Part shown: in pieces, positions 9,276 through 52,486 of the stretch
How the letters are laid out: every line of letters begins with the position of its first letter
How positions within the stretch are numbered: the first letter of the stretch is position 1
Assembly: GCA_001899315.1 (NCBI GenBank)
Contig: MOYA01000001.1
Span: forward strand, 2,558,529-2,622,528
Reading direction: 5' to 3'
Origin: Candidatus Obscuribacter phosphatis
GTDB lineage: Bacteria; Cyanobacteriota; Vampirovibrionia; Obscuribacterales; Obscuribacteraceae
DNA: 64,000 nucleotides
Program-made: the position numbers and the translations under genes
The notes under the pieces: model-generated
Database searches by the model: none
What the model was told of the DNA's origin: nothing
What the model saw: only the letters and a program-made list of their open reading frames with translations

Positions 9276-11465
9276 ATGCTCGAAGTAAAGAAGATCGAAT
9301 TGCAAGATGAGAAAAACATCGACGATTCCAAAACGCGCAGCAGCGGTAGCACCACCCTCGACGACATTGAGCAATTTGAGTCGGATCTCTGGCAGGCCGC
9401 AGACAACCTTCGAGCCAACTCGAAACTAACATCAAGCGACTATTTTATGCCGGTGTTGGGCGTGATTTTCCTGCGCCACGCTACCAATCGGTTCAACGTC
9501 GCGCATCGCCAGATCGAGGCTGACCAAGCGAACGGCAGGATGCCAAAACGCAAAGTGTTGCCCGCGGACTACATTGCGCGTCGGGCACTTTACCTTCCGG
9601 AAGATGCCCAGTATGACTGGATCATGCAGCAAGCATCTATAGGCGGTGCTGATCTTCCTAAACTCATCACTAGCGCGATGACAGCGATTGAAGAGTCTTT
9701 TGAACCTCTCGACGGCGTCCTACCGAAGGATTACGGAATTTTCGAAACCAAAGTTCTCGAAGACCTAATGCGCTTGTTCAACAGCGAGCTCATCAAAAAT
9801 GCCTCCGGTGACGTGTTCGGCCGCATTTATGAATATTTCCTCGCTAAGTTCTCTATTCAAAAGGCTCATGACAACGGTGAGTTCTTTACGCCTTCCTCGA
9901 TCGTCCAAACAATCGTGAATGTTATTGAACCGGATCATGGCACCATCCTCGATCCCGCTTGCGGCTCTGGTGGCATGTTCGTCCAATCAAGTCACTTCAT
10001 TGAACACGAAGGCGGAGATACCGCAAAGAAGGTGGTTTTCTACGGGCAAGAAAAGAATCGGGACACTATACGCATCGCGAAAATGAATCTCGCGGTGCAC
10101 GGACTGGAAGGTAAAATCGCCGAGGCAATAACTTACTACGAGGACGAACACACTCTCGTTGGCAAATGTGATTTCGTCATGGCTAATCCACCGTTCAATG
10201 TGGACCTCGTCGATGCGAAACGGGTTGAAGGCGATCCCCGCCTCCCCTTTGGTCTGCCCGGAGTAAACAAGGACAAGAAAGTCAGTAACGGAAACTATCT
10301 GTGGATCTCATATTTCTGGAGCTATCTTAACAACAAGGGCCGTGCGGGATTTGTCATGTCGTCACAAGCATCAAGTGCCGGGCACGGCGAAAAAGACGTC
10401 CGTCAAAAAATAGTTGAGACCGGCGATGTAGATGTGATGATCTCGATCCGCTCCAATTTCTTCTACACGCGTTCGGTACCCTGCGAGCTATGGTTTTTCG
10501 ACCGTGGCAGACCTTCGGAGCGCAAGAACAAGGTGCTAATGCTTGACGCACGCAATGTGTACCGCAAAGTTACTCGAAAAATATTTGATTTTTCTCCAGA
10601 GCAAATGAAAAACTTGGCGGCGATCGTTTGGCTTTACCGCGGCCAGCAAAACCGGTTTCTCATGCTGGTGAAGGAATATCTCAGCTACGTTTGTGCTGAG
10701 AGCGCATTTATTCCCCGCGCGCTCGCTTCCTTCGATTCTACGCTCTTTGACTTGCTTGGCTCGTTTGATTTGCTGGCTAAGGCTCTAGCAAAGAATACCA
10801 ATATTGATACAGAACAAAAGAAGATTCTATCTGGGGCTGTCACACAACTACGAGAAACTTCCACACTCTATAAGGCTGACGCTCAGCGCCTCTTGTCGAA
10901 TTTGGCCGCCTATAGCGAGAAGTATGGCAGTGCCCCACTTCCAGACAACAAATCTCAGCATACTGCTCGAAGGACTTTTGATCCAATTACGGAGACGATC
11001 CGGGGTCTAATGAAGCAGGTGGATTTGCTCTACAAACTAACCGCTCGTGCTGCTGATCTTGGTTCCTTACTTGCTGCGGATGAATCGATCTCGGCCAGCT
11101 ATGATCGCCGAGGCACGCTTCGGTTGGTGAAGAAGTTAGAGGAAGAACGTAAGACTGCAGTCGAGCAATTAAAGCACGCGATTTACTTCCATCGACAGGT
11201 TGCGTGGCTACAAGATCGCTTCCCGGACGCGGTGCTCGCCGATGTACCCGGACTCGTAAAGCTCGTAGATCACAAAGATATAGAAAATGCCGAATGGAGT
11301 CTCGCCCCGGGACTCTATGTGGGTGTTGCTCCTCCGGAAGTGGACGAGGATTTCGATTTCGAGCAAACTCTTCGCGATATTCACACCGAAATGGTCGATC
11401 TCAACAAGGAAGCTGCAGAGTTAGCAGCTAAGATTCAGGAGAACTTTGAGGGGATGGGAATATGA
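9276..11465 (+). CDS. hsdM: Type I restriction-modification methyltransferase subunit
   Basis: This is an N6-adenine DNA methyltransferase subunit of a type I R-M system. An N-terminal HsdM helical domain (FESDLWQAADNLRANSKLTS, about 27-46) precedes the catalytic domain with the SAM-binding motif ILDPACGSGGMFVQS (about 225-240) and the catalytic NPPF motif (MANPPFN, about 305). At 729 aa it is longer than classic HsdM (~500-550 aa). The extra C-terminal ~250 residues are helical and rich in Glu/Lys, and probably contact HsdS. Its stop overlaps the hsdS start (ATGA at 11462), so translation is coupled. Confidence 0.95.
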   Translation: MLEVKKIELQDEKNIDDSKTRSSGSTTLDDIEQFESDLWQAADNLRANSKLTSSDYFMPVLGVIFLRHATNRFNVAHRQIEADQANGRMPKRKVLPADYIARRALYLPEDAQYDWIMQQASIGGADLPKLITSAMTAIEESFEPLDGVLPKDYGIFETKVLEDLMRLFNSELIKNASGDVFGRIYEYFLAKFSIQKAHDNGEFFTPSSIVQTIVNVIEPDHGTILDPACGSGGMFVQSSHFIEHEGGDTAKKVVFYGQEKNRDTIRIAKMNLAVHGLEGKIAEAITYYEDEHTLVGKCDFVMANPPFNVDLVDAKRVEGDPRLPFGLPGVNKDKKVSNGNYLWISYFWSYLNNKGRAGFVMSSQASSAGHGEKDVRQKIVETGDVDVMISIRSNFFYTRSVPCELWFFDRGRPSERKNKVLMLDARNVYRKVTRKIFDFSPEQMKNLAAIVWLYRGQQNRFLMLVKEYLSYVCAESAFIPRALASFDSTLFDLLGSFDLLAKALAKNTNIDTEQKKILSGAVTQLRETSTLYKADAQRLLSNLAAYSEKYGSAPLPDNKSQHTARRTFDPITETIRGLMKQVDLLYKLTARAADLGSLLAADESISASYDRRGTLRLVKKLEEERKTAVEQLKHAIYFHRQVAWLQDRFPDAVLADVPGLVKLVDHKDIENAEWSLAPGLYVGVAPPEVDEDFDFEQTLRDIHTEMVDLNKEAAELAAKIQENFEGMGI

Positions 11466-12655
11466 AGTGGACCACGAAGTCCCTTGCGGAAGTGGCGGAC
11501 TTCTGTTTGGGAAAGATGTTGGACGACAAAAAGAACCGAGGAGAACCTCTTCCTTACCTGGCCAATGTCAATGTGCGTTGGGGTGAATTTCATCTCGAAA
11601 ATCTTCGAGAGATGCGGTTTGAGCATGACGAAATGGATCGCTACGGGCTGAAGTACGGCGACATCGTAATGTGTGAGGGGGGCGAACCGGGACGATGCGC
11701 AATATGGAAAGAGCCAGTGCCAGGAATGATGATCCAGAAAGCTCTTCATCGCATTCGCCCGCATGATTGCATTGATCATCGCTTCTTGTATTACACATTC
11801 TTGCATAAAGGAAAGACTGGTGAATTTGCTCCCTTATTTACAGGCGCGACTATCAAGCACCTTCCGCGTCAGCAGCTGGCCAAGCTTGAGATCGACTTCC
11901 CGCAGCTAGAAGTTCAGCGTCGCATTGCCGATTTCCTTTCCGCCTACGACAATCTGATTGAGAACAATCGGCGTCGAATGGCCTTGTTGGAAGATGCTTC
12001 GAGGCAATTGTATAAAGAGTGGTTTGTTCGGTTGCGCTTTCCCGGCCACGAACACACAAGTATAGTCCACGGTGTACCGGAGGCATGGGATCGAGTTCCT
12101 ACTCCGGATGCGATTTACGTCAATCCACCGACGCGATTATCAGATGAAGACGAGCATTGGTCCGTGGAGATGGCCGACCTGGATACAGACAGTATGGTTA
12201 TTCAACAGGCGACGCGGCGCGAAGGACGATCTGGAAGTAAGTTTCGCAACGGAGACACACTTTTTGCCCGCATAACACCATGCCTCGAAAATGGAAAGAC
12301 TGGGTTCGTCAACTTCATGGAAGATGGGGAAGTAGCTCGTGGCTCCACAGAATTTATCGTTCTTCGGTCTAAGCGCCTAACGCCCGAGTTTGTATATTGC
12401 CTTGCTCGCACCTACGAATTCCGCGAAAACGCAATCAGGAGTATGGTGGGTTCTTCTGGTCGGCAGCGTGTCCAGGAGAGCTGCTTCGACAAGTTCTTGG
12501 TCCTTGTCCCGCCAAGCACCTTGCTGGGCGTCTTTACCGAATGTGTAGAGCCTATGTTCCAGCAGATTAGAGTGCTTCATAGCATCAACCACAAACTCAA
12601 GACTGCCCGTGACCTGCTTCTGCCGCGATTGATGGGTGGGGAAATCGCTGTGTGA
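11462..12655 (+). CDS. hsdS: Type I restriction-modification specificity subunit
   Basis: The 397-aa HsdS recognises the bipartite target sequence. Two target-recognition domains are visible (about 1-150 and 200-345). Each is followed by a conserved helical spacer: LEVQRRIADFLSAYDNLIEN then RRRMALLEDASRQLYKEWF in the middle, and HKLKTARDLLLPRLMGGEI at the end. The start overlaps the hsdM stop by four bases. The specificity cannot be predicted by eye. Confidence 0.93.
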   Translation: MKWTTKSLAEVADFCLGKMLDDKKNRGEPLPYLANVNVRWGEFHLENLREMRFEHDEMDRYGLKYGDIVMCEGGEPGRCAIWKEPVPGMMIQKALHRIRPHDCIDHRFLYYTFLHKGKTGEFAPLFTGATIKHLPRQQLAKLEIDFPQLEVQRRIADFLSAYDNLIENNRRRMALLEDASRQLYKEWFVRLRFPGHEHTSIVHGVPEAWDRVPTPDAIYVNPPTRLSDEDEHWSVEMADLDTDSMVIQQATRREGRSGSKFRNGDTLFARITPCLENGKTGFVNFMEDGEVARGSTEFIVLRSKRLTPEFVYCLARTYEFRENAIRSMVGSSGRQRVQESCFDKFLVLVPPSTLLGVFTECVEPMFQQIRVLHSINHKLKTARDLLLPRLMGGEIAV

Positions 12656-12671
12656 TGGAAATGACGACGGC

Positions 12672-15600
12672 ATGATCACGGACATTAATAGCGAAGACCG
12701 GCTCGTCCAGAAGACCTTTGCGGACCATCTGGAAAAGTCTCTTGGATGGGACAGCATTTACGCTTATAATTCAGAAACCTTCGGTCCTGCTGGAACACTG
12801 GGGCGAGCGTCGGAGCGGGACGTGGTTTTAGTTCGCGACCTGCGCGCTGCCGTCGCACGGTTGAACCCCGACCTACCAGAAACCGCACGGGAACAGGCGA
12901 TCACCAAGCTGACGACGCATGACATAGCACGATCGCTCATTCAACACAATCGCGAATTTTACGGTTTCATTCGCAATGGAGTACCTGTGGAATGGCGAGA
13001 CGCATCGGGTGAAACTCGCTATGAGCATGCGCAAGTAATCGATTTTCAAAATCGCCCGGGAAACAACCGATTCCTTGCGGTTCGCGAATTAAAGATTCAG
13101 GGACTTCGGGTTCCTCACTACAATCGGCGCGCTGACTTAGTTTGTTTCATCAATGGTCTGCCAATCGTGTTCATTGAATTAAAGGCAGTCTACAGAAACA
13201 TCCGCGCTGGGTTCGACGACAATCTCACGGACTACCTAAGCGAACATAGTATCAATCACGCATTTCATCACAACGCCTTCTTAGTGGTAAGCAATGGCGA
13301 TAAGGCTCGCTATGGTTCGATCACTAGCAAATGGGATCACTTCGTTGAATGGAAGCGAAACGCGGAAACTGACAAAGCGCGGGTGGATGCTGAAGCCTTG
13401 CTAGACGGCATGTTGAAGCAAGAGAGGTTGCTCGACCTTCTCGAAAACTTTATCCTCTTCGATGATAGCCGCGCTGGCGGCACCCGCAAAGTTGTAGCTC
13501 GCAATCACCAAGTGCTCGGCGTAAACAATGCGGTCGCCTCCGTCAAGCGGCAGGAGGCACTGAAACGGGAAATTCCCCCGGAAAAGCGCTTGTTTGAATA
13601 TACCGTACCGATGCCGGAACTTCCACGAGCCGAAACGCCAGCTGTTCGGGAGGCAATACTCAAGTCCGAGATGAACAAGAGGGAGGAGTTTCTGTCTTTG
13701 ATCAAACGCTCACATCCAGACTTAGGGCGGTTGGGCGTGTTCTGGCATACGCAGGGCAGTGGAAAATCGTACTCAATGGCGTTCTTTGCCGAAAAGGTGC
13801 GCCGCGTTATCCCAGGCAATTTTACTTTCCTGGTCATGACTGATCGCGAGGATTTGGACGATCAGATCTGGCGCACTTTCATAGGTTGTGGTGTCACCGA
13901 TGAGAAGACTCCGCGCGCTGCCTCCGGTGAGAAACTCAAGGAACACCTGCACGGCAATCATCGCTTTATCTTCAGCCTGATCCACAAATTCAATAAGCCA
14001 GTAACGGAGCCTTACAGCACTCGTGACGATATCATCGTCGTTTCTGACGAGGCTCATCGCACTCAGGCGGGCAAGTTCGCCCGTAACATGCGGCTCGCAC
14101 TGCCGAACGCCTCGTTCATCGGATTTACTGGCACGCCATTGTTGAAGCATGACCAATTCACGAAACGTATCTTCGGAACTTACATTTCTAGATACGACTT
14201 CAAACGCTCCGAGGAAGATCGATCCACCGTCAAACTGATTTACGATAACCGTGGGGAGAAGCTCGGAATCGCGCGTCTCGATCTGAATGATCGGATCGCA
14301 GAAGCAATCGAGAAGGCGGAGCTAAATCCCGATCAACAGTCGTTGCTGGAGAAATTGCTTGGCAAAGACTATGAGGTTATTACTGCCGACGACCGGCTCG
14401 ACAAGCTCGCTGATGATTTCGTCGAACACTGCTCAACGAGGTGGCAGACTGGTAAGTCGATGTTTGTTTGCATAGACAAAATTACTTGCGGTCGCATGTT
14501 CACTCGCATCCAGCCCCGTTGGGAGGCTAAGCTCGCGGACTTGAAAGCGCTGATCACGATAAAGGAAGCCGAACTCAAGATCGCTACTGATTCGGATGTA
14601 CAGGAACGCCTCGGAAATGAGATCGAGTCGCTGCGCGGCCAGGCGCAGTGGATGGAAAGCACCATCATCCAAATCATCATCAGCGAGGCGCAAAACGAGG
14701 TGCGTGACTTCGCGAAATGGAAAGTCGATATTATTCCGCATCGGACGATCATGAAGACCGGATTCCATACCCCGGATGGCAGGCGGGTGGGAGTCGACGA
14801 TGCCTTTAAGGACCCGAAGCATCCATTCCGTATTGCAATCGTTTGCGCCATGTGGCTGACGGGCTTTGATGTGGAATGTCTTGCCACTTTGTACATAGAC
14901 AAGCCGATGAAGGCACATAATCTGATGCAGGCCATTGCTCGTGCTAACCGCGTTTTTCCGGGCAAAGATTGCGGCGTGATAGCGGATTACAACGGCATGC
15001 TCAAAAGTCTGCAAAAGGCGCTTGCACAATACGCGCTTGGGGATGATGACGCTGGCGGCGATGACGAAATTGTAGCCCCCATCGAGGTGCTCGTTGCCGC
15101 ACTTCTCCAGGCGATTGAGGAAAGCGAGAAACATCTTCTCGGACTTGGGTTTGATGCACTCCGGCTGCGAGGTGCAACTGGATTCACACGGATCGAAGCT
15201 TTGCGGGATGCCGTCGACGCTTTATACACCTCGGACGAAGCGAAACGCCGATTCGAAATCATGGCCCGTCAGGTCTTCATTCGTTTCAAGGCTTTGTTGA
15301 TGGAGCCTAGCGCATTCACTTACGCGGAGCGCCACGATAACATCGAGGCGATCTACAAGAAGCTTGAGGAAAAACGCGACACTGCCGACGTGACGGAAGT
15401 GCTAAAGCAACTGCACCGGATCGTTAACGAAGCTATACGTGCGGCAGCTCCTGGAGAGGATCGTGCGCAATCTTTGACTGTAGATCTCAGTCAGATTGAT
15501 TTCGAAAAGCTGCGCGAAGAATTCGCCAGCAAGGTGCGCCGCAAACATGCTGCTGTTCAAGACATTCGCGATGTCGTCGAGAAGAAGTTGGCCGATATGC

Positions 15601-16070
15601 TTGCACGCAATCCCCTGCGAATGGACTACTACAAGAAGTATCAGGAGATCATCGCTGATTACAATCGCGAAAAGGATCGCTCCACTGTCGAGCAAACATT
15701 TGCGCAGCTCGTCGCCTTAGCTGCGACACTAGATGAGGAGCAAAAGCGTGCAGCCAAAGAGGGATTGAGCGACGACGAATTGGCCCTCTTCGATCTTCTC
15801 TTTCGTGAGAGCATCACCAAGACGGATCGCGAACGCCTCAAACAAGCTAGCAAGAGCCTGCTGGATTCGCTCCGAACACTGCTTAAGCCGATGCCAACTT
15901 GGACGAAGAATAGCGCCACCCAAGCACAAGTTCGTGTGTTCATTCTGGACAGCCTCTATCAGAACCTGCCTCAGCCGCCATTCACCGATAACGACATAGA
16001 GCAGGCGACCGAGAACGTCTACAACTTCATCTGGGCAAAAAGCTTGGACGCGGATGCGACGTGGGTTTGA
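12672..16070 (+). CDS. hsdR: Type I restriction endonuclease/translocase subunit
   Basis: HsdR cleaves DNA after ATP-driven translocation. The N-terminal nuclease region contains RRADLVCFINGLPIVFIELK (about 155-175), matching the D...ExK catalytic pattern. The SF2 translocase follows: Walker A FWHTQGSGKSYSM (GSGKS about 362-366), VVSDEAHRTQ (DEAH box) and GFTGTPL. Motor 2 contains WLTGFDVECLATLYIDKPM and QAIARANRVF. The C-terminal half is helical. I use ATG 12672 (MITDINSED), 16 bases after hsdS, since the longer reading from 12636 lies inside hsdS. About 1132 aa, within the normal range of long HsdR proteins. Confidence 0.95.
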   Translation: MITDINSEDRLVQKTFADHLEKSLGWDSIYAYNSETFGPAGTLGRASERDVVLVRDLRAAVARLNPDLPETAREQAITKLTTHDIARSLIQHNREFYGFIRNGVPVEWRDASGETRYEHAQVIDFQNRPGNNRFLAVRELKIQGLRVPHYNRRADLVCFINGLPIVFIELKAVYRNIRAGFDDNLTDYLSEHSINHAFHHNAFLVVSNGDKARYGSITSKWDHFVEWKRNAETDKARVDAEALLDGMLKQERLLDLLENFILFDDSRAGGTRKVVARNHQVLGVNNAVASVKRQEALKREIPPEKRLFEYTVPMPELPRAETPAVREAILKSEMNKREEFLSLIKRSHPDLGRLGVFWHTQGSGKSYSMAFFAEKVRRVIPGNFTFLVMTDREDLDDQIWRTFIGCGVTDEKTPRAASGEKLKEHLHGNHRFIFSLIHKFNKPVTEPYSTRDDIIVVSDEAHRTQAGKFARNMRLALPNASFIGFTGTPLLKHDQFTKRIFGTYISRYDFKRSEEDRSTVKLIYDNRGEKLGIARLDLNDRIAEAIEKAELNPDQQSLLEKLLGKDYEVITADDRLDKLADDFVEHCSTRWQTGKSMFVCIDKITCGRMFTRIQPRWEAKLADLKALITIKEAELKIATDSDVQERLGNEIESLRGQAQWMESTIIQIIISEAQNEVRDFAKWKVDIIPHRTIMKTGFHTPDGRRVGVDDAFKDPKHPFRIAIVCAMWLTGFDVECLATLYIDKPMKAHNLMQAIARANRVFPGKDCGVIADYNGMLKSLQKALAQYALGDDDAGGDDEIVAPIEVLVAALLQAIEESEKHLLGLGFDALRLRGATGFTRIEALRDAVDALYTSDEAKRRFEIMARQVFIRFKALLMEPSAFTYAERHDNIEAIYKKLEEKRDTADVTEVLKQLHRIVNEAIRAAAPGEDRAQSLTVDLSQIDFEKLREEFASKVRRKHAAVQDIRDVVEKKLADMLARNPLRMDYYKKYQEIIADYNREKDRSTVEQTFAQLVALAATLDEEQKRAAKEGLSDDELALFDLLFRESITKTDRERLKQASKSLLDSLRTLLKPMPTWTKNSATQAQVRVFILDSLYQNLPQPPFTDNDIEQATENVYNFIWAKSLDADATWV

Positions 16071-16157: not shown

Positions 16158-16664
16158 TTACTCAGGCCGAAAAGCCGCTTCACCAGGTCGAGCATGAATC
16201 CACAGTTCTAATGGCAAGTGTCCGGCATTGAGCCCCAATATAAATTGAGCCTTTTCCTCGGCCTCTGTGCCATACACCAAGTAAATACATCGTTTGTATC
16301 CGAAGCCCAAGAATCGCTCGAATGTCTGCAAATCCTTGATGATGCCTGCTCTTCTTGCGGTGCAGGGCTTAATTTCAATGATTGCAAAATTTCGATGAGT
16401 TCCGGGCTCATGAACCAAGAGGTCAGGCTGAAGACCGCCTTCAGGAAAGTATGGATGGCCTTGCTTGTCAATTTCACCGTTCAGCGCATACGGTGTCTCG
16501 ATCTTATCCCACTCTACTCTAAGCTGGTGATATAGCTCGTAACAGTAGACGCGCTCTCGGTAGATAGTACGCGCGCGGCCATTCTCGGTTACGACAGGAA
16601 GCAAGAAGAATTTCCCGGGAATTGCTTGGGTCGCAGTTTGAAGTAATTCTTCGAATTCTTGCAC
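16158..16664 (-). CDS. Small PD-(D/E)XK nuclease-like protein
   Basis: This 168-aa protein has the pattern of a PD-(D/E)XK fold: GGLQPDLLVHEPG (the PD half-site, about 78-90) and FAIIEIKPCTA (the ExK half-site, about 93-104), then helices and an IYLVYGTEAEE strand. The fold is common in restriction and defence nucleases. It lies 16 bases downstream of the large ATPase gene on the same strand and is convergent to hsdR, so it probably belongs with the ATPase. Whether it is an active nuclease is inference. Confidence 0.65.
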   Translation of the reverse strand: MQEFEELLQTATQAIPGKFFLLPVVTENGRARTIYRERVYCYELYHQLRVEWDKIETPYALNGEIDKQGHPYFPEGGLQPDLLVHEPGTHRNFAIIEIKPCTARRAGIIKDLQTFERFLGFGYKRCIYLVYGTEAEEKAQFILGLNAGHLPLELWIHARPGEAAFRPE

Positions 16665-19278: not shown

Positions 19279-19658
19279 TGTTCCTCCTCAGCCACCACTT
19301 CGCGCCCATAACTCCTGGGCAGCGTGTGACAATCATGCGGAGCGTTAGTTTATCACGGACGTCATTGCATATCTTCAGCATATCCAGAGCGATGCACGCA
19401 TGCAGCTGCAAGATATCGAGATTTGATCGCGGTTTATGGCTGCACTCGATGCCAGTCATTTCCTAATACGATTGGTTTTGATTCTTTGGTCACCGCCGTT
19501 CGTGCTTTTGACGGCGAGAACATTGACACGACTTTCCGCCGCTTCCAATGGCAACCCTAACGGGCGCTTCGCGTCCATTGGGCGTCGTAAAGCCGCATGT
19601 CGGGCTGACGCTCGTGTCTTTTGTGACGCACTTAACGCACATACGGAGGTGCCAAATT
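19279..19658. other. Divergent intergenic region
   Basis: This 380-base region separates the leftward ATPase gene from the rightward ssb gene and must hold both promoters. A short inverted repeat, GCCGT...ACGGC, lies near 19496-19516. I see no convincing gene. ACGGAGGT (19643-19650) at the right end is the ssb ribosome binding site. Confidence 0.6.
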
Positions 19659-20060: not shown

Positions 20061-20066
20061 TTAGCA

Positions 20067-20099: not shown

Positions 20100-20240
20100 G
20101 TCTCGTCGAGAATTGTTTTTAGTATCGAACGAATTTTCCCACCGCCTCATTAACTGACTTCAACCCGTTTTTTAGAGCATCTTGCGACACTGCATCACGC
20201 GTGGTATCACACGCTCTTTGCCCCGCACTAACTCTTTACG

Positions 20241-20980: not shown

Positions 20981-21059
20981 CAGGGCCCGTGGCTGCGGGT
21001 TTACCGGCATGTGCTGCATGGGATGCGCTGCGCAGCCCTAACACATGGAGGAAACGAGC

Positions 21060-42443: not shown

Positions 42444-42800
42444 TTAAATCAGAGAGGACATTTTGAATCGTTTTTGGCGACGTACATGACGCAAATCGAT
42501 GCCATCCAGAATCATCATGAGAGTCGGGTGATCAATCTCGATACTATTGCCCACGACGTGCGGCGGGAACTTGAATGTGCCCTTGGACAGAAGCTTGTAC
42601 CAAAGCACGAAGCCATCGCCGTCCCATGCAAGGATCTTAAGCCTGTCACCTCGGCGATTGCGGAAGACGAAGAGGTTGCCAGAGAGGGGATTTCCCTGCA
42701 TGAAGGATCGCACCTGACCGGATAGTCCGCAGATACCCATTCTCATATCGGTGGGTCTGCTACAAACATAGATCTTCAGATTGCCTGTGGGAACAAGCAT
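42444..42800 (-). CDS. tnpB: IS66 family protein TnpB (Orf2)
   Basis: The 118-aa product is a complete TnpB: MLVPTGNLKIYVCSRPTDMR, GLSGQVRSFMQGNPLSGNLF, VFRNRRGDRLKILAWDGDGF, VLWYKLLSKGTFKFP. It starts at ATG 42800. Upstream the same frame stays open and encodes a TnpA-like tail. TnpB is needed for IS66 transposition but has no known catalytic activity. Confidence 0.88.
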   Translation of the reverse strand: MLVPTGNLKIYVCSRPTDMRMGICGLSGQVRSFMQGNPLSGNLFVFRNRRGDRLKILAWDGDGFVLWYKLLSKGTFKFPPHVVGNSIEIDHPTLMMILDGIDLRHVRRQKRFKMSSLI

Positions 42801-43106
42801 TGCGTTATCGGAGCGCTTGTAGAACGGGGAAGAGCAAAGCGCTATTCGATGCAGCCGGAAGCTCAATAAAAGACCTTGTTGCGTGGAGATCTCGATTCCT
42901 TCTGTCTCAGCCTGAGGCGCCTCAAGCCGCTGGAGGCGAATGGAACATTTTGCCTCGACAAATTCCATTGAAGTTTTCTTTTCTTGCCTCTCGTTGGTCT
43001 CATTCGCTAGACGACTCTTTCTGGCAGCTCTTACTGACTCATTGCGTTGTTCCGCGTCGCGACTCTCAATCACAGAGACCCAGCTGCAGAGAGTACTGAG
43101 CTTCAA
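42801..43106 (-). pseudogene. IS66 TnpA remnant fused in frame to tnpB
   Basis: The 102 codons upstream of tnpB encode a basic stretch followed by MEFVEAKCSIRLQRL and TEGIEISTQQGL, which resembles the C-terminal part of IS66 TnpA. The N-terminal helix-turn-helix of TnpA is not visible. The fusion to tnpB without a stop suggests decay. Confidence 0.5.
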
Positions 43107-43661: not shown

Positions 43662-44264
43662 ATGCACGCCCTCGCTACACCGACAAAACCTACTGGCGCG
43701 GCTCTTCTGTCTCGTCGGCTTCGAGCAGGCGGAGTATACCGGCGTGAAGATCTTGCTCCGGACTCTAATGCTGTTGACCGTCATTTGAAACAGCTACAAG
43801 AAACAGGCCGGCTCAAAAAGCTATCTCAAGGACTCTACTACGTGCCTCGACAGTCGGCCTATGGCGCGTTGCCGCCAGATGACAGAGAACTCGTTGCTGC
43901 ATTTCTGCGTGATGACAATTTCTTGCTGCTTTCACCGGCCAGCTACAACACACTTGAGCTAGGCGGCACGCAACTCTACAACCGTACCGTTGTCTACAAT
44001 CACAAGCGACACGGACGGTTTACTTTCGGAAACCGGACATTCGATTTTCGAATGAAGCCGCGATTTCCGCGCAGACTTTCCCATGAGTTCCTCATTGTTG
44101 ATTTACTCAACAATCTGGATGAACTTGCAGAAGAGCGCGAAGATCTCTTGCGTAATGCTCAGCTTAAAGCTCCGACATTGGACCGCCGCAAGCTAATGCA
44201 AGCAGCATCAAATTTCGGAACTGTAGCGACAAAGCAATTGGTCAAGAAGTGGCTTGATGTCTGA
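43662..44264 (+). CDS. AbiEi-type antitoxin/transcriptional regulator
   Basis: The 200-aa protein has the AbiEi layout: an N-terminal winged-helix (GAALLSRRLRAGGVYRREDL and HLKQLQETGRLKKLSQGLYY) and a C-terminal domain (LVAAFLRDDNFLLLSPASYN, FLIVDLLNNLDEL). In AbiE systems it represses its operon and counteracts the nucleotidyltransferase toxin. It overlaps the toxin gene by 8 bases. Confidence 0.85.
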   Translation: MHALATPTKPTGAALLSRRLRAGGVYRREDLAPDSNAVDRHLKQLQETGRLKKLSQGLYYVPRQSAYGALPPDDRELVAAFLRDDNFLLLSPASYNTLELGGTQLYNRTVVYNHKRHGRFTFGNRTFDFRMKPRFPRRLSHEFLIVDLLNNLDELAEEREDLLRNAQLKAPTLDRRKLMQAASNFGTVATKQLVKKWLDV

Positions 44265-45198
44265 ATACTTGCATAAGAGAGCAGATTTTGCAGCTCTGCT
44301 GAATCTCATTGCGAGCAGAGATGGCATCACGCCTACCTTGGTCGAAAAAGATTACTGGATCATGCACAGCCTTCACGGGCTCAAGCAACAAGGATTTCAA
44401 TTCGAATTGAAGGGCGGCACCTCACTGTCCAAAGGGTTTGGAATCATCAAACGGTTTTCAGAAGATATAGACATCCGCTTTGAACCTCCTGCGGAGATGG
44501 AGGTAAAAACTGGAAAGAATCACGATAAGGAGATTCATATTGAATCCCGCAGGAAATTTTACGACTGGCTCGCCGGTGAAATTGACATTGCGGATGTCAC
44601 AGCTTCACGTGCCACCGAATATGACGATGAGCGCCTGCGAAATGGTGGCATACGCCTCAGTTATGAAACCAAGACCGCAGAACTTAAGGGAGTAAAGCCA
44701 GGTATCCTACTTGAAGTCGGCTTCGATGACACCGCGCCAAACACCTCTGTGGACATTTCATCTTGGGCTTTGGAAACGGCTCGCACAAATAAGGTTGATG
44801 TCATCGATAACCGGGCGATTGCCGTTCTCTGCTACAACCCCGAATACACATTCGTTGAGAAATTGCAGACAATCTCTACCAAATTCCGTCAATTCCGATC
44901 TTCTGGCAAAATGCCCTCCAATTTTCTCCGACACTACAACGATGTTCATTCGTTGCTGGACGTTGAGGCTGTGCAGCGCTTCATCGGCACCGAACAATAT
45001 GAACTACGAAAGAAACAACGCTTTCCAAGCCAAGACGAATTGCGCATATCCAAGAATCCGGCATTCCTCTTCGAAAACCCTGAGGAATACAAGCAATTCG
45101 AGAGGGAGTATAAGGGAACTGAAGCTCTTTACTATGCTGGACAACCGTCCCTTGCTGACATTGCAGCAAAGATCAAACAACACATCGACAAGCTGTAG
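44257..45198 (+). CDS. AbiEii/AbiGii-type nucleotidyltransferase toxin
   Basis: The 313-aa product carries the nucleotidyltransferase signature KGGTSLSKGFGIIKRFSEDI then DIRF (GGTS followed by D-x-D) near residue 50, plus YTFVEKLQTISTKFR and HYNDVHSLLD typical of AbiEii proteins. Known members transfer nucleotides to tRNA or other acceptors and stop growth, which limits phage. ATG 44257 is chosen over TTG 44254. Confidence 0.93.
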   Translation: MSEYLHKRADFAALLNLIASRDGITPTLVEKDYWIMHSLHGLKQQGFQFELKGGTSLSKGFGIIKRFSEDIDIRFEPPAEMEVKTGKNHDKEIHIESRRKFYDWLAGEIDIADVTASRATEYDDERLRNGGIRLSYETKTAELKGVKPGILLEVGFDDTAPNTSVDISSWALETARTNKVDVIDNRAIAVLCYNPEYTFVEKLQTISTKFRQFRSSGKMPSNFLRHYNDVHSLLDVEAVQRFIGTEQYELRKKQRFPSQDELRISKNPAFLFENPEEYKQFEREYKGTEALYYAGQPSLADIAAKIKQHIDKL

Positions 45199-45679: not shown

Positions 45680-47155
45680 ATGTCTATGAAAGTAGCCCGC
45701 CAAATTGCCGTCTATGAACGTCTGCGTGACAAGCCTCTCTGGAGCCTGCTTGCATCTCGCAATGCTCCTATTATCTTGGCCTTGCTGCAGGCTCATTTAC
45801 TAGACAACGAGAGGCGTGTTCCGCAATCCATTCTGTATGAGCGAATTGAACGAGAGCTTGAAGAACTTCGCGCTGCGGGCGTTGACGTGCCACAGCGCGC
45901 GCAGGCTTATGTAGCCGATTGGCTCTCAGCCGGCTACCTAGAGCGGTACTTTCCCGTAGGCGCCACAGAAGAAGAATACGAAATTTCCGCAGCCGCAGCG
46001 CAAGCAATTAGATTCTTAGAAAGTAGTATCGACAGGCGAGCGACAGCAACAGAAAGTCGTTTATCTGCGGTCATTCAACAACTAGTGAGACTTATAGAAG
46101 AGACAGACAGAAATAAGAGCTCTCGTATCTCAACACTGCTGCAAGAACGAGACCGCATCGACAAAGAAATCGCACGCGTTGAAGGCGGTGATATCCACGT
46201 CCTCAATGACCTTCAAGCCCTAGAAAGGGTTAGAGAAGTGATCACGTTGACGAAGGAACTGGTGGCTGACTTCAGACGTGTAAGAGATGAGTTCGATATA
46301 CTGAATCGCAGCTTGCGCGAGAAGCTTCTCGAAGAGACCGATAGTCGAGGCGACGTACTCGAAGCTCTATTTGCTGGTGTCGATCTCATCGGAGAGAGTA
46401 ACGCCGGACGAACCTTCGCTGCCTTCTGGCGACTATTGACAGATCCTCAGCAGAATCAAGTATTTGAAGACGCCCTCGAAACCCTTGCCGAACGAGAGTT
46501 CTTCAAGAGACTGACACCCGATGAACGTCAATTTCTGCGCCGTATGACACGAACCCTCTTGGAACACGGCGGCATTGTGCATGACGTTCTACAGAACTTC
46601 GCTCGAAGCCTCAAGGCCTTCGTGCAAAGTCGTGAATATTTAGAGCAACGAAGAATAAACCAATTGTTGAATGAAGCCCAACTCGCTGCGCTCAATCTCA
46701 AAGACGTCCTAGGACTCACAGAGAAGCTTGAATACGATTTACCACTAACTAGCTGCCGCATCCGCAGCCTATCGCAGATGACCCTGCATGACCCATCTCT
46801 CGGGCTATCTGACACTACGATTTCCGATGCTCCACCGGCTGACATCAAGCTTGAGGCGATCAGCGAATTAGTCGCGCAGTCCGAGATCGATTTCCGCACT
46901 TTGAAAAGTAACATCCTCGCGTGTCTCTCTGATCACCAGGTGCAACAGGTATCGATTGGCGAAGTAATTAGAATTTATCCAGTTCTACAAGGCTTAGGCT
47001 CTGTCATTGGTTATATTTCGCTTGGGACTCGCCATGGCATTGTTGTCCCTGATCAGAATGAAAAGGTTGTTTGGGAGGGGGCTGATGGCGAACGGCGATC
47101 GGCAAGAATACCGATGATTTTCTTCCAAAGGGAAACGGTGAATGATCTTGGATAA
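45680..47155 (+). CDS. jetA: Wadjet subunit JetA (MukF-like kleisin)
   Basis: The 491-aa protein matches DUF3375-type JetA of Wadjet type I. It has an N-terminal winged-helix region (LWSLLASRNAPIILALLQAH and LDNERRVPQSILYERIEREL), a long helical middle with coiled coil (around 130-230), and a C-terminal winged-helix. JetA is the kleisin-like subunit that links JetC ATPase heads. It overlaps jetB by 14 bases. Wadjet loads on and cleaves small circular DNA such as plasmids. Confidence 0.92.
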   Translation: MSMKVARQIAVYERLRDKPLWSLLASRNAPIILALLQAHLLDNERRVPQSILYERIERELEELRAAGVDVPQRAQAYVADWLSAGYLERYFPVGATEEEYEISAAAAQAIRFLESSIDRRATATESRLSAVIQQLVRLIEETDRNKSSRISTLLQERDRIDKEIARVEGGDIHVLNDLQALERVREVITLTKELVADFRRVRDEFDILNRSLREKLLEETDSRGDVLEALFAGVDLIGESNAGRTFAAFWRLLTDPQQNQVFEDALETLAEREFFKRLTPDERQFLRRMTRTLLEHGGIVHDVLQNFARSLKAFVQSREYLEQRRINQLLNEAQLAALNLKDVLGLTEKLEYDLPLTSCRIRSLSQMTLHDPSLGLSDTTISDAPPADIKLEAISELVAQSEIDFRTLKSNILACLSDHQVQQVSIGEVIRIYPVLQGLGSVIGYISLGTRHGIVVPDQNEKVVWEGADGERRSARIPMIFFQRETVNDLG

Positions 47156-47891
47156 CGATGCTTCAGATTTGAGCCAAATGGATTGCAATTCGTACTCGCT
47201 CGGAAATGAGGATCAACCGGAGGGTGCAAATGCTTTATTCTTTGGTGACACTGGTGCTCTACCATTGGATACACGCCGAACAATGATGCATTTGCTCGCG
47301 GGACCATTTGTCTCCGGTAAGAAACATTCAAAACTATGGACAGCTCTCATAAGAGATGAGCGAATCATTAAGAGTAGGCTTTCCGAGTTCTTTCTCGATA
47401 TCGTTATTGATCGCGAGCAGCAAGTAGCTTTCGTCAAACAGTTTGACAGTCAAGGAGTCGAAGTGCCGACTTTGTTACGCCGGTCTCAACTGACTTTCGT
47501 AGATTCGGTACTAATTCTCCATCTTCGCAGACGATTAACCGCTGCAGACGCACATGGAGAACGAGCGGTTGTGTCGGAGAGTGAACTAATCGATCATCTA
47601 TCAGTTTACGAACGCGCGGCAAGCACCGACCGCGCCGGCTTCATCAAACGCGTGAAGGCCTCTGTTGAGAAGTGCAAGAAGAATAACATTCTTCAGTTAA
47701 TTCGGGGGAGTAAAGATCGATTTGAGGTATCACCAACACTCAAACTACTCTTTTCTGCAGAGGAAATAGTCTCACTCACAAAACTGTACTCAGATATCGC
47801 CGCGGCTGAGGGACAACCACGGCAAAAATGCCACATCAAACAAAGTGAAGCTGATTACGGCGCAGAATTGGGTGAAGAAGATGACGACTGA
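47142..47891 (+). CDS. jetB: Wadjet subunit JetB (MukE-like)
   Basis: The 249-aa DUF4194-type protein has the features of JetB, a MukE-like winged-helix subunit. LPLDTRRTMMHLLAGPFVSG and HSKLWTALIRDERIIKSRL open the domain, followed by VPTLLRRSQLTFVDSVLILH and LRRRLTAADAHGE. It overlaps jetA and jetC at its ends, so the operon is translationally coupled. Confidence 0.9.
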   Translation: MILDNDASDLSQMDCNSYSLGNEDQPEGANALFFGDTGALPLDTRRTMMHLLAGPFVSGKKHSKLWTALIRDERIIKSRLSEFFLDIVIDREQQVAFVKQFDSQGVEVPTLLRRSQLTFVDSVLILHLRRRLTAADAHGERAVVSESELIDHLSVYERAASTDRAGFIKRVKASVEKCKKNNILQLIRGSKDRFEVSPTLKLLFSAEEIVSLTKLYSDIAAAEGQPRQKCHIKQSEADYGAELGEEDDD

Positions 47892-50800
47892 AGAAACCTC
47901 GGACTCAAAGATAGAAGTACCACCAAATCAGTTCCGCATGCGTCGACTTCAAGTGCTAAATTGGGGAACATTTTCTCAGTTACATGACATGCCCATCGCG
48001 GAAAAAGGTTTCCTAATTACGGGACCATCTGGAGCGGGAAAGTCTACACTGCTTGATGCGATTGCCGCGCTCCTAGTCCCACCAAAGTGGCACGACTTTA
48101 ACGCCGCAGCAAGGGAAGGAGACCGCGCCAGAAAGAATGATAGAAATCTTCTCAGCTACCTAAGAGGTGCCTATGCTGAGCAGAAAGACAGTGAATCAGG
48201 TGAATACGTAGTACGCTATCTAAGGGAAAACACAACACGCTCCGCACTTGCTTTGTCATATCGAAATACACTTGGACGAACTGTTACCATTGCACAATTC
48301 CTATACATCAAGGGCGCAAGCAATAATCCTCAAGATGTGAAACGACTTTATATGATTTTCGAACGCGAGTTCGACCTTAAGGAACTCGATGGAATCGACA
48401 TCGACATTCGTAAGATCAAGCATGCGTTTGATGGGCAGGCTCATATAAACGATGAGTTTAGACCTCATGCTGAGCGTTTTAGAAGGTTGTTAGGTATTGA
48501 ACATGAAATGGCTTTGCGCCTTCTTCAAAAAACGCAGTCAGCAAAGAATCTTGGCGATCTTAATCTATTTCTTCGTGAATTTATGCTAGATCCACCTGAT
48601 ACCTTCGAAGTCGCTGACCGCCTCGTAAAGGAATTTGGTGAACTTGATCAGGCTCACCAATCGGTAATAACGGCACGCCTGCAAATAGAGACGCTGAAAC
48701 CAGCGCGAGAGCTATTCGAAGAACGCAAAACCTTGAATGAGCAATACCTGGCTTTGTCGCGCCTGCAGCAAGACCTCGAAGCATTCACAGAACAGCTACG
48801 ATGCAAATTATTTAGTGAGCGAATTGCTGAGCTTAGCCTAAAGGTTCAGCAGACTCGCGCGGTCATCGAACAGAAGGAATCGGCAAAGCTTGCAGAAAAA
48901 GAAAAGCTTTCCGTACTAGAGCAGCTGCACCAAGAAAAGGGTGGAGGTCTTATCGAACGCCTAAAATACGATAGGGTTCAGTCAGAACAATCAAAAACAG
49001 AGAAGCTCTTGAAGCTCAGGCAGGTTCAACAGGCTTGCGGGGCTTTAGGATGGGAAACACCGGCATCTGCAGAGAGCTTCGTTGCCATGGTAACCGAAGC
49101 ACGCGGGCTCCTGTCAGATCTGCAATCTCGTGGTGACGCTATGCTTCAAAAGCTGCTAGACGTTCGAACTCTGAAGCGGGCATTGGAAGAGCGTCTTACA
49201 GAGTGTCGCCGTGAAGTTGAATCGTTAAGACGACAGCCATCCAATATTCCCTCACACATGCTCCGACTGAGAAAGCAGATTTGCACTGCGATATCCGTGC
49301 ATGAAGATTCACTTCCGTTTGTCGGTGAACTGCTTGAGGTGCGAGCGGAAGAATCAGAATGGCGCGGTGCAATTGAGCGTGTCTTGCACGGATTTGCTTT
49401 ATCAGTTCTTGTCGAAGACCGTCATTACAACGCATTGACCAACTACGTCAACTCCACCAATCTCGGCATGCGACTGGTTTACTACAAAACATCTTCAACG
49501 ACTAGTCGAACAGATCGAACTGCACCGCTAAACTCTCTTGTAAGCAAACTTACATTCAAAGGGCATGCATGCAGCCCATGGCTCAAATCTGACTTGATTG
49601 AGCGTTTCAATTTTGACTGTGTCTCATCCCCTCAAGCGCTACGCGCTTCGGAGAGACCGGCAGTAACAATTGAAGGTTTGATTAAGTCAAGCAAGGCTCG
49701 CCACGAAAAGGACGATCGCCGGGATATTAACGATAAGCGTTTCTGGGTTCTGGGCTTCGATAACAGAGCAAAATTGGCTATCTTCGAGGGAGAAGAGCAA
49801 CAGTTAACAGCACAGCTAAAGGCTAAAGATAATGAAATAGAATCTATAGAGTCTGAAAACAAGAAGCTGAGTGCCGACGGACTCCGTTGGCAAACATTAG
49901 CAAACCTGTCATGGAAGGACATTGATGCTACTCCTTCTATAGATAGAATTCGTGACCTGAACGAACAGATAAAGCTATTGGAGAGCACTAACTCTAATCT
50001 GCAGAGTTTAGGTGAACAGATGGAAAATAAACGGAAGAAAGTCCGCGAGATAGAGGATTACATTGCAGAACTTAGTGGCGAAGAACGTGAGCATAAGCGT
50101 GCGCTGGACAAATGCAATGCCGATCTTTCGGAGAAATTCGAGCAATGGGGACAAGCTGAAATTGCCAGCGAACATAGAGAGGAGCTAAAGCGCAGATTCG
50201 ACTGGGAGGCCAATACTGTCGGCTTGAATAACCTAGACAAAACCGGTCACAGAGTTGACAAGCTAATCGAAGAAGAGTTGAAAGAATTAACTGCCTCAAT
50301 GGCGCAACAAAAACAAAAGATTGAAACTACATTTGCAACATTCAAACGCGAGTGGTCGACAGAAAGCGCCAACATGGACGAAACACTTGCCAGCGCTGGT
50401 GACTACTTTCAGCTTCTAGTGCGCCTTGAGAACGATAATCTACCAAAGTACGAAGATAAATTCTTTGACTTACTTCACAACCAGAGTAACCAAAACTTAG
50501 CCGCCTTAAACACTCATATCACCAATGGTCGCAAGATGATTTATGAGCGGATGGAGATGGTGAACTTTAGTCTGAGCCGGGCTCCTTTCAATCCAGAGAC
50601 TTTCTTGCGTATCCACACCCAGGATCGCAACTTAGAGCAGGTAAGAGAGTTCAGACAGGAGATTTCCAATGCCTTAAGCCATGCGTGGTCCTCTGGTGAT
50701 CGGGAGCAGGCTGAAAGTAGGTTTAACGTCCTACGCAAACTTGTTAAGCGATTATCGAGTCAGGAGACTGAGGACAAGAATTGGAAAAAAATGGTCTTGG

Positions 50801-51258
50801 ATGTGCGCGAGCATGTCGAATTTGTTGGTCTTGAAATCGATGCGGATGGGTGCGAGATTGAAAGCTACAGAAGTGGCGCAGGAAAGTCTGGTGGACAAAG
50901 GCAAAAGCTTGCCACCACCTGTTTGGCTGCCGCGCTGAATTATCAATTGAGTCGAGATGAGGAACTAAAGCCCACATATGCAGCAATCGTCCTTGACGAA
51001 GCATTTGACAAAGCCGACAACGAGTTCACGGCTGCCGCGATGAATATTTTCAAGGAGTTCGGTTTTCAAATGATTGTTGCGACACCTTTAAAGTCAGTGA
51101 TGACCCTAGAGCCATTTATCGGCGGAGCTGCCTTTGTTGATATTCGTGATCGACGCGTTTCGATGCAGCTTCCACTCGAGTATGACAACATAGGCAAGCG
51201 CCTTAAACTCACTGAGGAAATGAGACGAGATGTCGAATCAGCGATTGCTACTTCCTGA
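47881..51258 (+). CDS. jetC: Wadjet subunit JetC (MukB-like SMC ATPase)
   Basis: This SMC-type motor has its Walker A at ITGPSGAGKSTLLDAIAAL (about 43-61). Two long coiled-coil regions flank a hinge near residues 470-590. The C-terminal head has YRSGAGKSGGQRQKLATTCL as signature and AAIVLDEAFDKADNEF as Walker B/D-loop. ATG 47881 lies at the end of jetB (overlap of 11 bases); a longer reading from 47845 lies fully inside jetB. About 1125 aa, in the usual JetC range. Confidence 0.94.
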   Translation: MTTEETSDSKIEVPPNQFRMRRLQVLNWGTFSQLHDMPIAEKGFLITGPSGAGKSTLLDAIAALLVPPKWHDFNAAAREGDRARKNDRNLLSYLRGAYAEQKDSESGEYVVRYLRENTTRSALALSYRNTLGRTVTIAQFLYIKGASNNPQDVKRLYMIFEREFDLKELDGIDIDIRKIKHAFDGQAHINDEFRPHAERFRRLLGIEHEMALRLLQKTQSAKNLGDLNLFLREFMLDPPDTFEVADRLVKEFGELDQAHQSVITARLQIETLKPARELFEERKTLNEQYLALSRLQQDLEAFTEQLRCKLFSERIAELSLKVQQTRAVIEQKESAKLAEKEKLSVLEQLHQEKGGGLIERLKYDRVQSEQSKTEKLLKLRQVQQACGALGWETPASAESFVAMVTEARGLLSDLQSRGDAMLQKLLDVRTLKRALEERLTECRREVESLRRQPSNIPSHMLRLRKQICTAISVHEDSLPFVGELLEVRAEESEWRGAIERVLHGFALSVLVEDRHYNALTNYVNSTNLGMRLVYYKTSSTTSRTDRTAPLNSLVSKLTFKGHACSPWLKSDLIERFNFDCVSSPQALRASERPAVTIEGLIKSSKARHEKDDRRDINDKRFWVLGFDNRAKLAIFEGEEQQLTAQLKAKDNEIESIESENKKLSADGLRWQTLANLSWKDIDATPSIDRIRDLNEQIKLLESTNSNLQSLGEQMENKRKKVREIEDYIAELSGEEREHKRALDKCNADLSEKFEQWGQAEIASEHREELKRRFDWEANTVGLNNLDKTGHRVDKLIEEELKELTASMAQQKQKIETTFATFKREWSTESANMDETLASAGDYFQLLVRLENDNLPKYEDKFFDLLHNQSNQNLAALNTHITNGRKMIYERMEMVNFSLSRAPFNPETFLRIHTQDRNLEQVREFRQEISNALSHAWSSGDREQAESRFNVLRKLVKRLSSQETEDKNWKKMVLDVREHVEFVGLEIDADGCEIESYRSGAGKSGGQRQKLATTCLAAALNYQLSRDEELKPTYAAIVLDEAFDKADNEFTAAAMNIFKEFGFQMIVATPLKSVMTLEPFIGGAAFVDIRDRRVSMQLPLEYDNIGKRLKLTEEMRRDVESAIATS

Positions 51259-52486
51259 AGGTGTAAAAGAGAAGCTAACGCGCCTCTATGCTAGCAAGCA
51301 TCAAAGCTGGCTTAGCAGCACTGACTCAAATGCTTGGCCCCTGCGCATCAAACTGGGAACACCCACTGAAAAAGAAGCAGCAGCCAACCCTTCAGCAGTC
51401 AAAGATTGGATTATAGCCTGGAGTTCTTGGCAAGGGACAGGCACTCTCTCGTGGAGCGACAAACGTTGGCACATTCTTGGCACTCAGAGTTTACCTCAAG
51501 AAATTTCGTTCACTGATGCGGCGCAAGTTGCTCTATTGATTGGAGAGCGCTCTCGATGGGAGAGAGCCAAGCAGAGATTTCTGGACTTAAGTGAAAAATG
51601 GCCTATTTTGCTTCACACGTTGCCACGCTTTTTCTATGCTCTAGCAGATTATTCAGACTCGGATATTGCAAGGCTTACGTCATTGCTGGAGTGGTTTGAA
51701 AAGAAAACTCCAGTCAATTTATATCCAAGACAGATACCAGTTTCTGGTGTTGACACAAAATGGCTGGAAAGACACTCCGGCATCATCACAAAACTACTGT
51801 CAGTAATCCAAGATAAAGATGAAGATAATCTATACAAACTTACTGGTCTAACTGTTCCTCCTCGACTGGTGCGTTTTAGAGTTTTAGATAGCGAGCTAAG
51901 AAACCACTTCTCAGGACTTTCCGACATAACCTGCCCAGTAGATGAATTTGCTCGACTTAACTTGCCTATCAGAAGAGCGTTCATTGTAGAAAACGACCAA
52001 ACCGCCCTCTGCTTTCGGGATCTTCCGGGTGCTATCGCCATATTCGGTCGGGGCTACTCTGTTGAAATTGTCGAAGCCGTGACATGGTTGCTTAAGATTA
52101 AATGCTACTACTGGGGTGATCTCGATACGCACGGATTCAACATCTTAAATTCCGCGAGATCACATTTGCCACAACTGGAGTCATTGCTGATGGACGAGGA
52201 AACGCTGACATTGCATAGGGACCTTTGGGTCATGGAAGAGAAACCCATTCTCGCCGCTAATCTAAGAACGTTATCGGTGGAGGAACAGAACCTTTATCTC
52301 GCACTAAGGGACAATACTTTTGGAACAAGAGTGAGGCTAGAACAAGAACGCATTAACTGGGAGTTTGCCTGGGATTGCATTTGTAAGGTATATCACAGCA
52401 GATCTCTATCTGGGAAACCAACTGCAATGCAAAGCACAACTCTTGAGGACAGTACTCAATTGAGAATTAAAGCTTCGAATTTGTAA
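51230..52486 (+). CDS. jetD: Wadjet subunit JetD (Toprim-like nuclease)
   Basis: The 418-aa product combines a DUF3322-like N-terminal region with a C-terminal DUF2220/Toprim-like domain. AFIVENDQTALCF supplies the glutamate and YYWGDLDTHGFNILN supplies the DxD of the Toprim-type active site, which in JetD cleaves DNA. It starts 29 bases before the jetC stop and ends the operon. Confidence 0.93.
   Translation: MSNQRLLLPEGVKEKLTRLYASKHQSWLSSTDSNAWPLRIKLGTPTEKEAAANPSAVKDWIIAWSSWQGTGTLSWSDKRWHILGTQSLPQEISFTDAAQVALLIGERSRWERAKQRFLDLSEKWPILLHTLPRFFYALADYSDSDIARLTSLLEWFEKKTPVNLYPRQIPVSGVDTKWLERHSGIITKLLSVIQDKDEDNLYKLTGLTVPPRLVRFRVLDSELRNHFSGLSDITCPVDEFARLNLPIRRAFIVENDQTALCFRDLPGAIAIFGRGYSVEIVEAVTWLLKIKCYYWGDLDTHGFNILNSARSHLPQLESLLMDEETLTLHRDLWVMEEKPILAANLRTLSVEEQNLYLALRDNTFGTRVRLEQERINWEFAWDCICKVYHSRSLSGKPTAMQSTTLEDSTQLRIKASNL

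Follow-up and report, generated by a model that had tools for sequence, protein, structure and literature searches.

In Escherichia coli, defense systems are carried on mobile elements, integrative and mobilizable elements (IMEs) included, which often sit at tRNA genes and hold varied cargo (PMC10121019, accessible text). Druantia type IV consists of DruE and DruF with DruL, without DruM and DruG, according to the accessible part of PMC8565338. For Wadjet, the available portion of a review presents a model whereby small circles are cut and the large chromosome escapes the system (PMC10586767), while an excerpt of PMC12287153 sets an apparent plasmid-size cutoff of ∼40 kb against 50 to 100 kb obtained biochemically and regards as questionable those small plasmids that accompany Wadjet in impure cultures. 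Here, a 64,000-nucleotide stretch of the genome of Candidatus Obscuribacter phosphatis (the window) was analyzed. It contains an island in which a type I restriction-modification (R-M) operon, an RloC-like ATPase gene, a Druantia set, a Fic protein gene, an AbiE pair, and a Wadjet operon are arranged around a relaxase and coupling-protein block. The island is likely to be an integrated, decayed, and probably stranded IME-derived element from a family of Obscuribacterales elements that integrate at tRNA genes and carry defense cargo.

RESULTS

Mobilization backbone and its distribution

Coordinates without a contig label are window positions, the window being G000:C1:2558529-2622528 on a 3.23-Mb contig; the genome comprises 5.49 Mb in 8 contigs, and the bin has an estimated contamination of 4.53%. 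Systems were called by hmmscan against the PADLOC profiles, with further domains sought in Pfam and in PHROGs, the latter giving no match for 8 of 10 proteins scanned. The backbone spans positions 19548 to 28936 and encodes a single-strand binding protein (SSB), RadC, a small helix-turn-helix (HTH) protein, two small proteins, the relaxase, the type IV coupling protein (T4CP), a TPR-like protein, a 223-aa protein, and a DnaJ-domain protein (Table 1), a set that recurs in relatives. In its mobilization genes the island is like an IME, with its own relaxase (and coupling protein) and no mating-pair genes among the window open reading frames (ORFs) scanned, some small ORFs lying outside the scan.

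The relaxase recurred in the host's own family. Matches with E <= 0.001 were obtained in 28 of 36 genomes of that family and in 0 of 24 outside it (60 searched in total); in 18 the best E value was <= 1e-130, and the rest were more distant. Sixty-one named relaxase loci were then surveyed, with DNA covering at most 10 kb on each side. Of these, 49 were titled Obscuribacterales, Obscuribacter, Melainabacteria, or Cyanobacteria, and the other 12 bore the names of other taxa or "uncultured bacterium." The 83-aa protein preceding the relaxase, which we infer to be an accessory mobilization protein, was found in 57 loci, T4CP in 43, the 223-aa protein in 39, DnaJ in 32, SSB and HTH in 21 each, RadC in 20, a 110-aa protein in 14, and the TPR-like protein in 7. 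Of the 25 loci that reach 17 kb or more, 24 have T4CP and 21 have SSB or RadC. None of the 168 matching records in a plasmid collection covered 80% of the relaxase.

tRNA-bounded relatives and their cargo

Three elements from two related genomes have the backbone flanked on one side by a complete tRNA gene (for Leu, Val, or Met) and on the other by a 3' tRNA fragment, next to which stands a tyrosine integrase gene (Table 1). An integrase beside the fragment was recognized by Pfam in G022:C94, G018:C18, and G008 and by homology in G022:C149. The G022:C149 region (57837-89030) is a clear case of accretion, its 3' fragments being identical to the end of the tRNA-Met over 40 to 45 nt. A further element, G001:C35, extends over 35 kb from a Leu fragment to a 20-nt Leu core with an integrase homolog and is ordered Leu fragment, R-M, backbone, Avs2, SoFic, integrase homolog. 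The succession of tRNA fragment, R-M, SSB, RadC, relaxase, and T4CP is the same in the window and in G001:C35. In all synteny maps, weaker overlapping tblastn matches were dropped before tabulation.

The cargo differed among these elements. G001:C35 carries Avs2, RmrA, type I R-M, and SoFic; G022:C94 carries MkoA-like, NERD-UvrD, and ZorA-like proteins and SIR2 with HerA; G008 carries HmaA, HmaC, and a Fic-domain protein. G022:C149 has R-M and, in its second unit, AbiE with coupling-protein fragments; a PDC-S24 Fic protein (89290-90858) lies just past the last tRNA fragment, outside the units. PADLOC matched 13 of 30 large ORFs of the relatives (4/10, 7/10, and 2/10), which is no estimate of frequency because the ORFs were chosen by size; 3 of the 30 were integrases or outside a bounded element. 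R-M of other families, SoFic (85% identical), and AbiE (77 to 82% identical) recur beside the backbone in relatives; the AbiEi and AbiEii homologs (82% and 77%, respectively) lie between two tRNA-Met fragments in G022:C149. We read the cargo as swappable, other members carrying other R-M, Hma, Avs2, SIR2-HerA, or AbiE.

Borders of the island

The initial annotation let the island start at 9276. It begins further left, at two tRNA 3' fragments, of Leu and Val, which both lie directly left of the R-M operon. The Leu fragment is 84% identical to the 3' end of a G001 tRNA-Leu and 80% identical to the host's own, and the DNA behind it resembles the terminator that follows tRNA-Leu where the G008 element begins on its left side; a different terminator follows the host's own tRNA-Leu, which lies 10.9 kb beyond the left edge of the window. 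Similarly, the Val fragment is identical in 52/52 nt to the tRNA-Val that ends the G022:C94 element, compared with 91% for the host's own tRNA-Val, and this match extends 17 nt past the tRNA (97% over 70 nt). Because the Leu-fragment terminator and the Val fragment fit the relatives better than the host's own tRNA genes, the left end of the island probably came from another lineage, judging from these similarities.

ARAGORN found no tRNA in the window, as expected from the truncation of the fragments. A "tRNA array" at 6.4 to 7.9 kb was dropped on reading the sequence, and tRNA-Thr model matches inside the T4CP gene (window copy 25700-25755 included) were judged to reflect a false ARAGORN model. 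The block running from the intact tRNA-Leu beyond the left edge of the window (L002 from 9114) to position 7886 was partly syntenic with G001:C17 and may represent either an older element or chromosomal DNA that was rearranged.

No Phage_integrase match was found in the window or within 230 kb, serine recombinases not being searched for; the nearest matches on C1 lie at 1.89 and 2.85 Mb, with none between 1,888,230 and 2,854,440. The integrases of the relatives likewise gave no tblastn match in the window. The element is therefore termed IME-derived rather than an intact IME. Of the flanks, the right one (54072-102974) is present in G002 with an orf52683 homolog, the left flank giving only short DNA matches there; in G001, the left flank is present and recD2 is preceded by other DNA.

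Defense genes

In the initial annotation, positions 9,276 to 52,486 had been assigned a type I R-M operon, an RloC-like ATPase with a nuclease-like partner, a Druantia-II-like set, a Fic protein, an AbiE pair, and a complete Wadjet operon. Each of these six systems was recovered with PADLOC profiles; two of the finer assignments had to be revised, as described below. HsdM (E 1.1e-238, with NPPF), HsdS (9.5e-75), and HsdR (3e-154) make up the full type I R-M set, and JetA1 (4.2e-184), JetB1 (4e-87), JetC1 (E 0; Walker A GPSGAGKS), and JetD1 (4.8e-128) stand in one operon, as in Wadjet type I. The AbiEi antitoxin gene adjoins that of the AbiEii nucleotidyltransferase, in which we take GGTSLSK...EDIDI to be the nucleotidyltransferase motif. 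The transposase-related ORF between SoFic and AbiE is presumably IS66 Orf2-like.

The Druantia genes better fit a type IV-like than a type II set, as judged from profile matches. DruE, DruF, and DruL are present, as in type IV, and no DruG match was obtained among the window ORFs scanned with PADLOC; type II (DruM, DruF, DruG, and DruE) was set aside on account of the missing DruG match and the presence of DruL. In alignments with the long DruF2 models, DruF covers the N-terminal part and DruL the C-terminal part, a pattern resembling a single long protein divided in two. The fit to type IV is not clean, since a DruM-like methylase gene adjoins on the opposite strand (divergent). Druantia thus stood as a family name, and the type changed.

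The RloC-like protein combines a Walker A motif with CPFC, which we take to be the zinc hook of an RloC ATPase. Its C terminus contains REAWE and a later H, which we assume could form an anticodon-nuclease triad. A PDB search with this protein gave two weak ATPase matches. The proposed nuclease-like partner does have a PD-(D/E)XK-like motif, PDLLVHEPGTHRNFAIIEIK. Conservation of the pairing was not seen: no relative of the small ORF (tblastn, E <= 1) was found in 5 plasmid neighborhoods of RloC-like homologs, taken from 1,055 records matching the RloC-like protein. In one of the five, from S. epidermidis, a gene with a nuclease-related domain lies ∼1.2 kb from the RloC-like homolog. A conserved two-gene system of RloC-like protein and nuclease was therefore not supported by these neighborhoods.

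Wadjet and Druantia were rare in the family. Among 50 family genomes, host included, JetC homologs were found in 7 (the other six being 29 to 32% identical) and DruE in 2. In G006 and G033, JetC and the relaxase are on different contigs, and G034 has JetC and no relaxase match, so that in the three genomes searched for both, the Wadjet or Druantia homologs are either located off the relaxase contig or found where the genome gave no relaxase match. The Wadjet-bearing genomes G065, G072, and G073 were outside the relaxase search, and the draft contigs are short. No Dru, Jet, or RloC homologs (E <= 1e-8) were detected in any of the 61 relaxase loci, within the surveyed DNA of at most 10 kb per side.

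Circular relatives

Contig C7 of the same bin (35,639 bp; L049, L050, and L091) is circular, its relaxase frame running for 548 codons across the contig ends. Homologs of the relaxase, T4CP, SSB, RadC, and DnaJ are common to C7 and the window; C7 also carries cytochrome c assembly genes, IetS, a ThiF protein, and a TOTE-type primase domain. Two smaller contigs, L136 (9,980 bp) and L142 (9,398 bp), have identical ends of 99 and 119 bp, respectively, and are therefore read as circular. Each has a relaxase relative without a coupling protein, and they are likely small plasmids of the same relaxase family.

Flanking sequences

Right of the island, directly before orf52683, a SAM_alpha (SAM-II) riboswitch-like match that stays below threshold (28.7 bits; gathering score, 36) was observed at 52610-52686 (+), and a similar one (27.2 bits) at L055:4681-4761 (-), before the orf52683 homolog in G002. 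The core sequence is conserved. The stretch 54072-57981 is 95% identical to G002:C36, compared with ∼80 to 87% over most of the flank further right, and is possibly a patch of recent exchange as judged from identity. The stretch at 10.4 to 14.1 kb of L003 (74357-78109 in window coordinates) is missing from the same place in G002, and partial relatives of it adjoin the orf52683 homolog of that genome; it carries a homolog of the transposase-related ORF 42444. A match of the tRNA-Val end to G002:C36 45974-45999 scored 25, against a shuffle maximum of 23; dozens of comparisons having been made, it was taken as chance.

Table 1. Features of the island and bounded elements in related genomes (values after database names are E values)
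Feature	Location	Strand	Evidence or remarks
3' fragment of tRNA-Leu(tag)	7886..7948	+	Left border of island; element-type terminator downstream
3' fragment of tRNA-Val(tac)	8076..8127	+	
S41-peptidase-like ORF between tRNA fragments and R-M operon	8237..9205	+	Pfam Peptidase_S41 2.4e-20
Type I R-M operon hsdM-hsdS-hsdR	9276..16070	+	PADLOC; Pfam domains for HsdR
Small PD-(D/E)XK-like ORF adjoining RloC-like gene	16158..16664	-	PD-Lambda-3_A weak, 1.2e-4; motif in translation
RloC-like AAA ATPase (PDC-S06)	16681..19278	-	PADLOC 3.9e-222; Walker A, CPFC motif
Single-strand binding protein	19548..20060	+	Pfam SSB 7.6e-17; in relatives
RadC-like JAB protein	21045..21527	+	Pfam RadC 7.8e-39; in relatives
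Small HTH excisionase/regulator-like protein	22052..22267	+	phrog_66 excisionase 7.7e-8
Conserved small protein	22480..22812	+	45-86% identical in relatives
Conserved 83-aa protein before relaxase	23305..23556	+	Recurs in named relaxase loci (see text)
MobA/VirD2-type relaxase with HHHIH	23557..25110	+	Pfam Relaxase 1e-6; family alignment
Type IV coupling protein (VirD4/TraG)	25115..27223	+	Pfam T4SS-DNA_transf 2.2e-44
TPR-like protein, conserved 223-aa protein, DnaJ-domain protein	27250..28936	+	Pfam, relatives; TPR_10 weak, below cutoff
DruM-like DNA cytosine methylase	29381..30448	+	PADLOC 8.8e-92; GGPPCQG, ENV, QxRxR
DruK (PD-(D/E)XK superfamily)	30498..31625	-	PADLOC 1e-26
DruE4 helicase	31586..37090	-	PADLOC E 0; TGTGSGKT and DELH
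DruL4 and DruF4	37087..40006	-	PADLOC 1.1e-16 and 1e-61
SoFic-type Fic protein	40281..41462	-	PADLOC 7.9e-124; HPFLDGNGR; 85% homolog on G001:C35 element
Transposase-related ORF	42444..43106	-	phrog_623 transposase 2.7e-32
AbiEi-AbiEii pair	43662..45198	+	PADLOC 2.5e-81 / 2.7e-66
Wadjet type I operon jetABCD	45680..52486	+	PADLOC
Right border zone	52487..52599	.	DNA from 52600 rightwards common to G002:C36, with gaps
G008:C9 element (JAIEOQ010000004.1)	tRNA-Leu 407519-407601 to fragment 437979-438029		30 kb; tyrosine recombinase beside fragment
G022:C94 element (JAGVKB010000103.1, 65,579 bp)	tRNA-Val 46647-46718 to fragment 8-58 at contig edge		46.6 kb; integrase 294-1547
G022:C149 element (JAGVKB010000139.1)	tRNA-Met 57837-57913 to fragments at 83899 and 88991		Two tandem units
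G001:C35 element (JACRFZ010000054.1)			See text

DISCUSSION

The data support the proposal of the initial annotation that a multisystem defense island surrounds a mobilization module, whose relaxase and coupling protein were confirmed with Pfam: the same backbone stands beside other defense genes in relatives. That the defense genes cluster beyond chance is argued from the E values and from this recurrence. In the history that we favor, defense systems would have filled stretches on both sides of the conserved backbone, whose SSB, RadC, HTH, relaxase, and coupling protein would have served to nick the excised element and feed it into the mating pore of another element. The left end, backbone, and cargo would remain in the window, with the right end presumably lost. 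The systems would act independently, with R-M, Druantia, the RloC-like protein, AbiE, and Fic directed against phages and Wadjet against small circular DNA.

Several observations weigh against such an origin. The two adjoining tRNA fragments are unlike each other and neither has its 5' half, so that the island may be composite or may have moved. No right attachment (att) core was found in the window by Smith-Waterman comparison with 40 shuffles or by searches with 12-mers and with up to 4 mismatches; together with the missing integrase match, this makes it probable that the element is stranded. No genome was found with both flanks joined and the island absent, and recD2 is preceded by different sequence in G001:C80 and in G007, which indicates that the right flank is itself variable. 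Six scanned ORFs of G024:C12, G031:C26, and G020:C16 had no PADLOC match. Finally, T4CP is absent from 18 of the 61 loci, 10 of which have at least 2.5 kb after the relaxase; these T4CP-less loci, two of them (L136 and L142) circular, show that some members of the relaxase family reside on plasmids or circles that lack a coupling protein. With C7 circular as well, the family is not confined to IMEs.

A composite island, in which the left half, from the tRNA fragments to SoFic, is one IME and AbiE and Wadjet were acquired independently of it, for instance through a transposase-bearing unit or a second, tandem element, is possible, if somewhat less likely than not. The transposase-related ORF, the placement of AbiE in a separate unit between tRNA-Met fragments in G022:C149, and the low identity of the family's six other JetC homologs would all suit it, as would a GC content of 0.45 to 0.49 across 46 to 52 kb, even if the value is just as low in the Druantia stretch between 37 and 40 kb. 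Against it, AbiE appears to belong to the same gene pool, since its 77 to 82% identical copy adjoins coupling-protein fragments of the same family, and no att-like border was found at 41.4 to 45.7 kb. Fusion of a C7-like circular replicon with the chromosome seems rather unlikely. Although C7 is circular, has backbone homologs in common with the window, and carries a TOTE-type primase domain, and although two small circular contigs have relaxase relatives, no replication protein was found among the window ORFs scanned, and the full-backbone relatives are tRNA-bounded integrated elements, with the window starting with similar end sequence. The "plasmid-type genes" of the initial annotation accordingly need qualification: the best-documented relatives are IMEs at tRNA genes, and relaxase relatives also occur on circular contigs.

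We regard it as quite improbable that a chromosomal defense island simply also caught a mobilization block by chance. The rarity of Druantia and Wadjet in the family and their absence, with RloC, from the surveyed relaxase loci would be in keeping with such an accident, but R-M, Fic, and AbiE accompany the backbone in other genomes, and the order of tRNA fragment, R-M, SSB, RadC, and relaxase is the same in G001:C35. The check that had been suggested for a single island, comparison of the whole block in relatives, gave a divided answer: in the three genomes searched for both, Wadjet and Druantia homologs lie apart from a relaxase or in a genome with no match to it, and R-M, SoFic, and AbiE recur with the backbone.

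The integrated IME-derived element also bears on the conflict that had been seen between an antiplasmid Wadjet and a mobilizable backbone. This paradox is weak, because the island lies integrated within a contig of 3.2 Mb and large chromosomal DNA evades Wadjet in the models described in the available portion of PMC10586767. The 35.6-kb circle C7, which carries the same backbone and belongs to the bin that bears Wadjet, is more curious than the integrated island. C7 may come from another strain, a possibility raised by the contamination estimate of the bin, or Wadjet may be silent. It is conceivable, if highly unlikely, that members of one element family compete through Wadjet, that of a stranded, integrase-less member destroying small circular forms of its relatives, and that C7 escapes through a countermeasure or a silent Wadjet; if so, the self/non-self handling of Wadjet by mobile elements would become testable. 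In any case, this circular relative offers a concrete case in which to study how circular elements could persist beside Wadjet.

Defense islands on tRNA-integrated elements are known; the present element family seems undescribed among the literature matches listed, as titles and the starts of abstracts. A tRNA-targeting mobilizable element family with swappable defense cargo is now placed in nonphotosynthetic cyanobacterial relatives and provides natural examples of elements gathering, exchanging, and stranding defense systems. The island resembles the tRNA-gene IMEs and defense hotspots of E. coli in its varied cargo, with Wadjet and AbiEii among it, and differs from those IMEs in its phylum, its own relaxase family, and its probably stranded state, as far as the accessible text of PMC10121019 describes them. 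Its Druantia genes are like type IV in having DruE, DruF, and DruL together with no DruG match and unlike it, by the part of PMC8565338 available, in the adjoining DruM-like methylase and DruK genes. The RloC-like protein shares an AAA_13-type ATPase, Walker A, and CPFC with RloC/PrrC-like ATPases, whereas PADLOC matches it best to PDC-S06, a candidate family. The Wadjet operon is like type I in having all four subunits in one operon and unlike it in lying beside a mobilization module.

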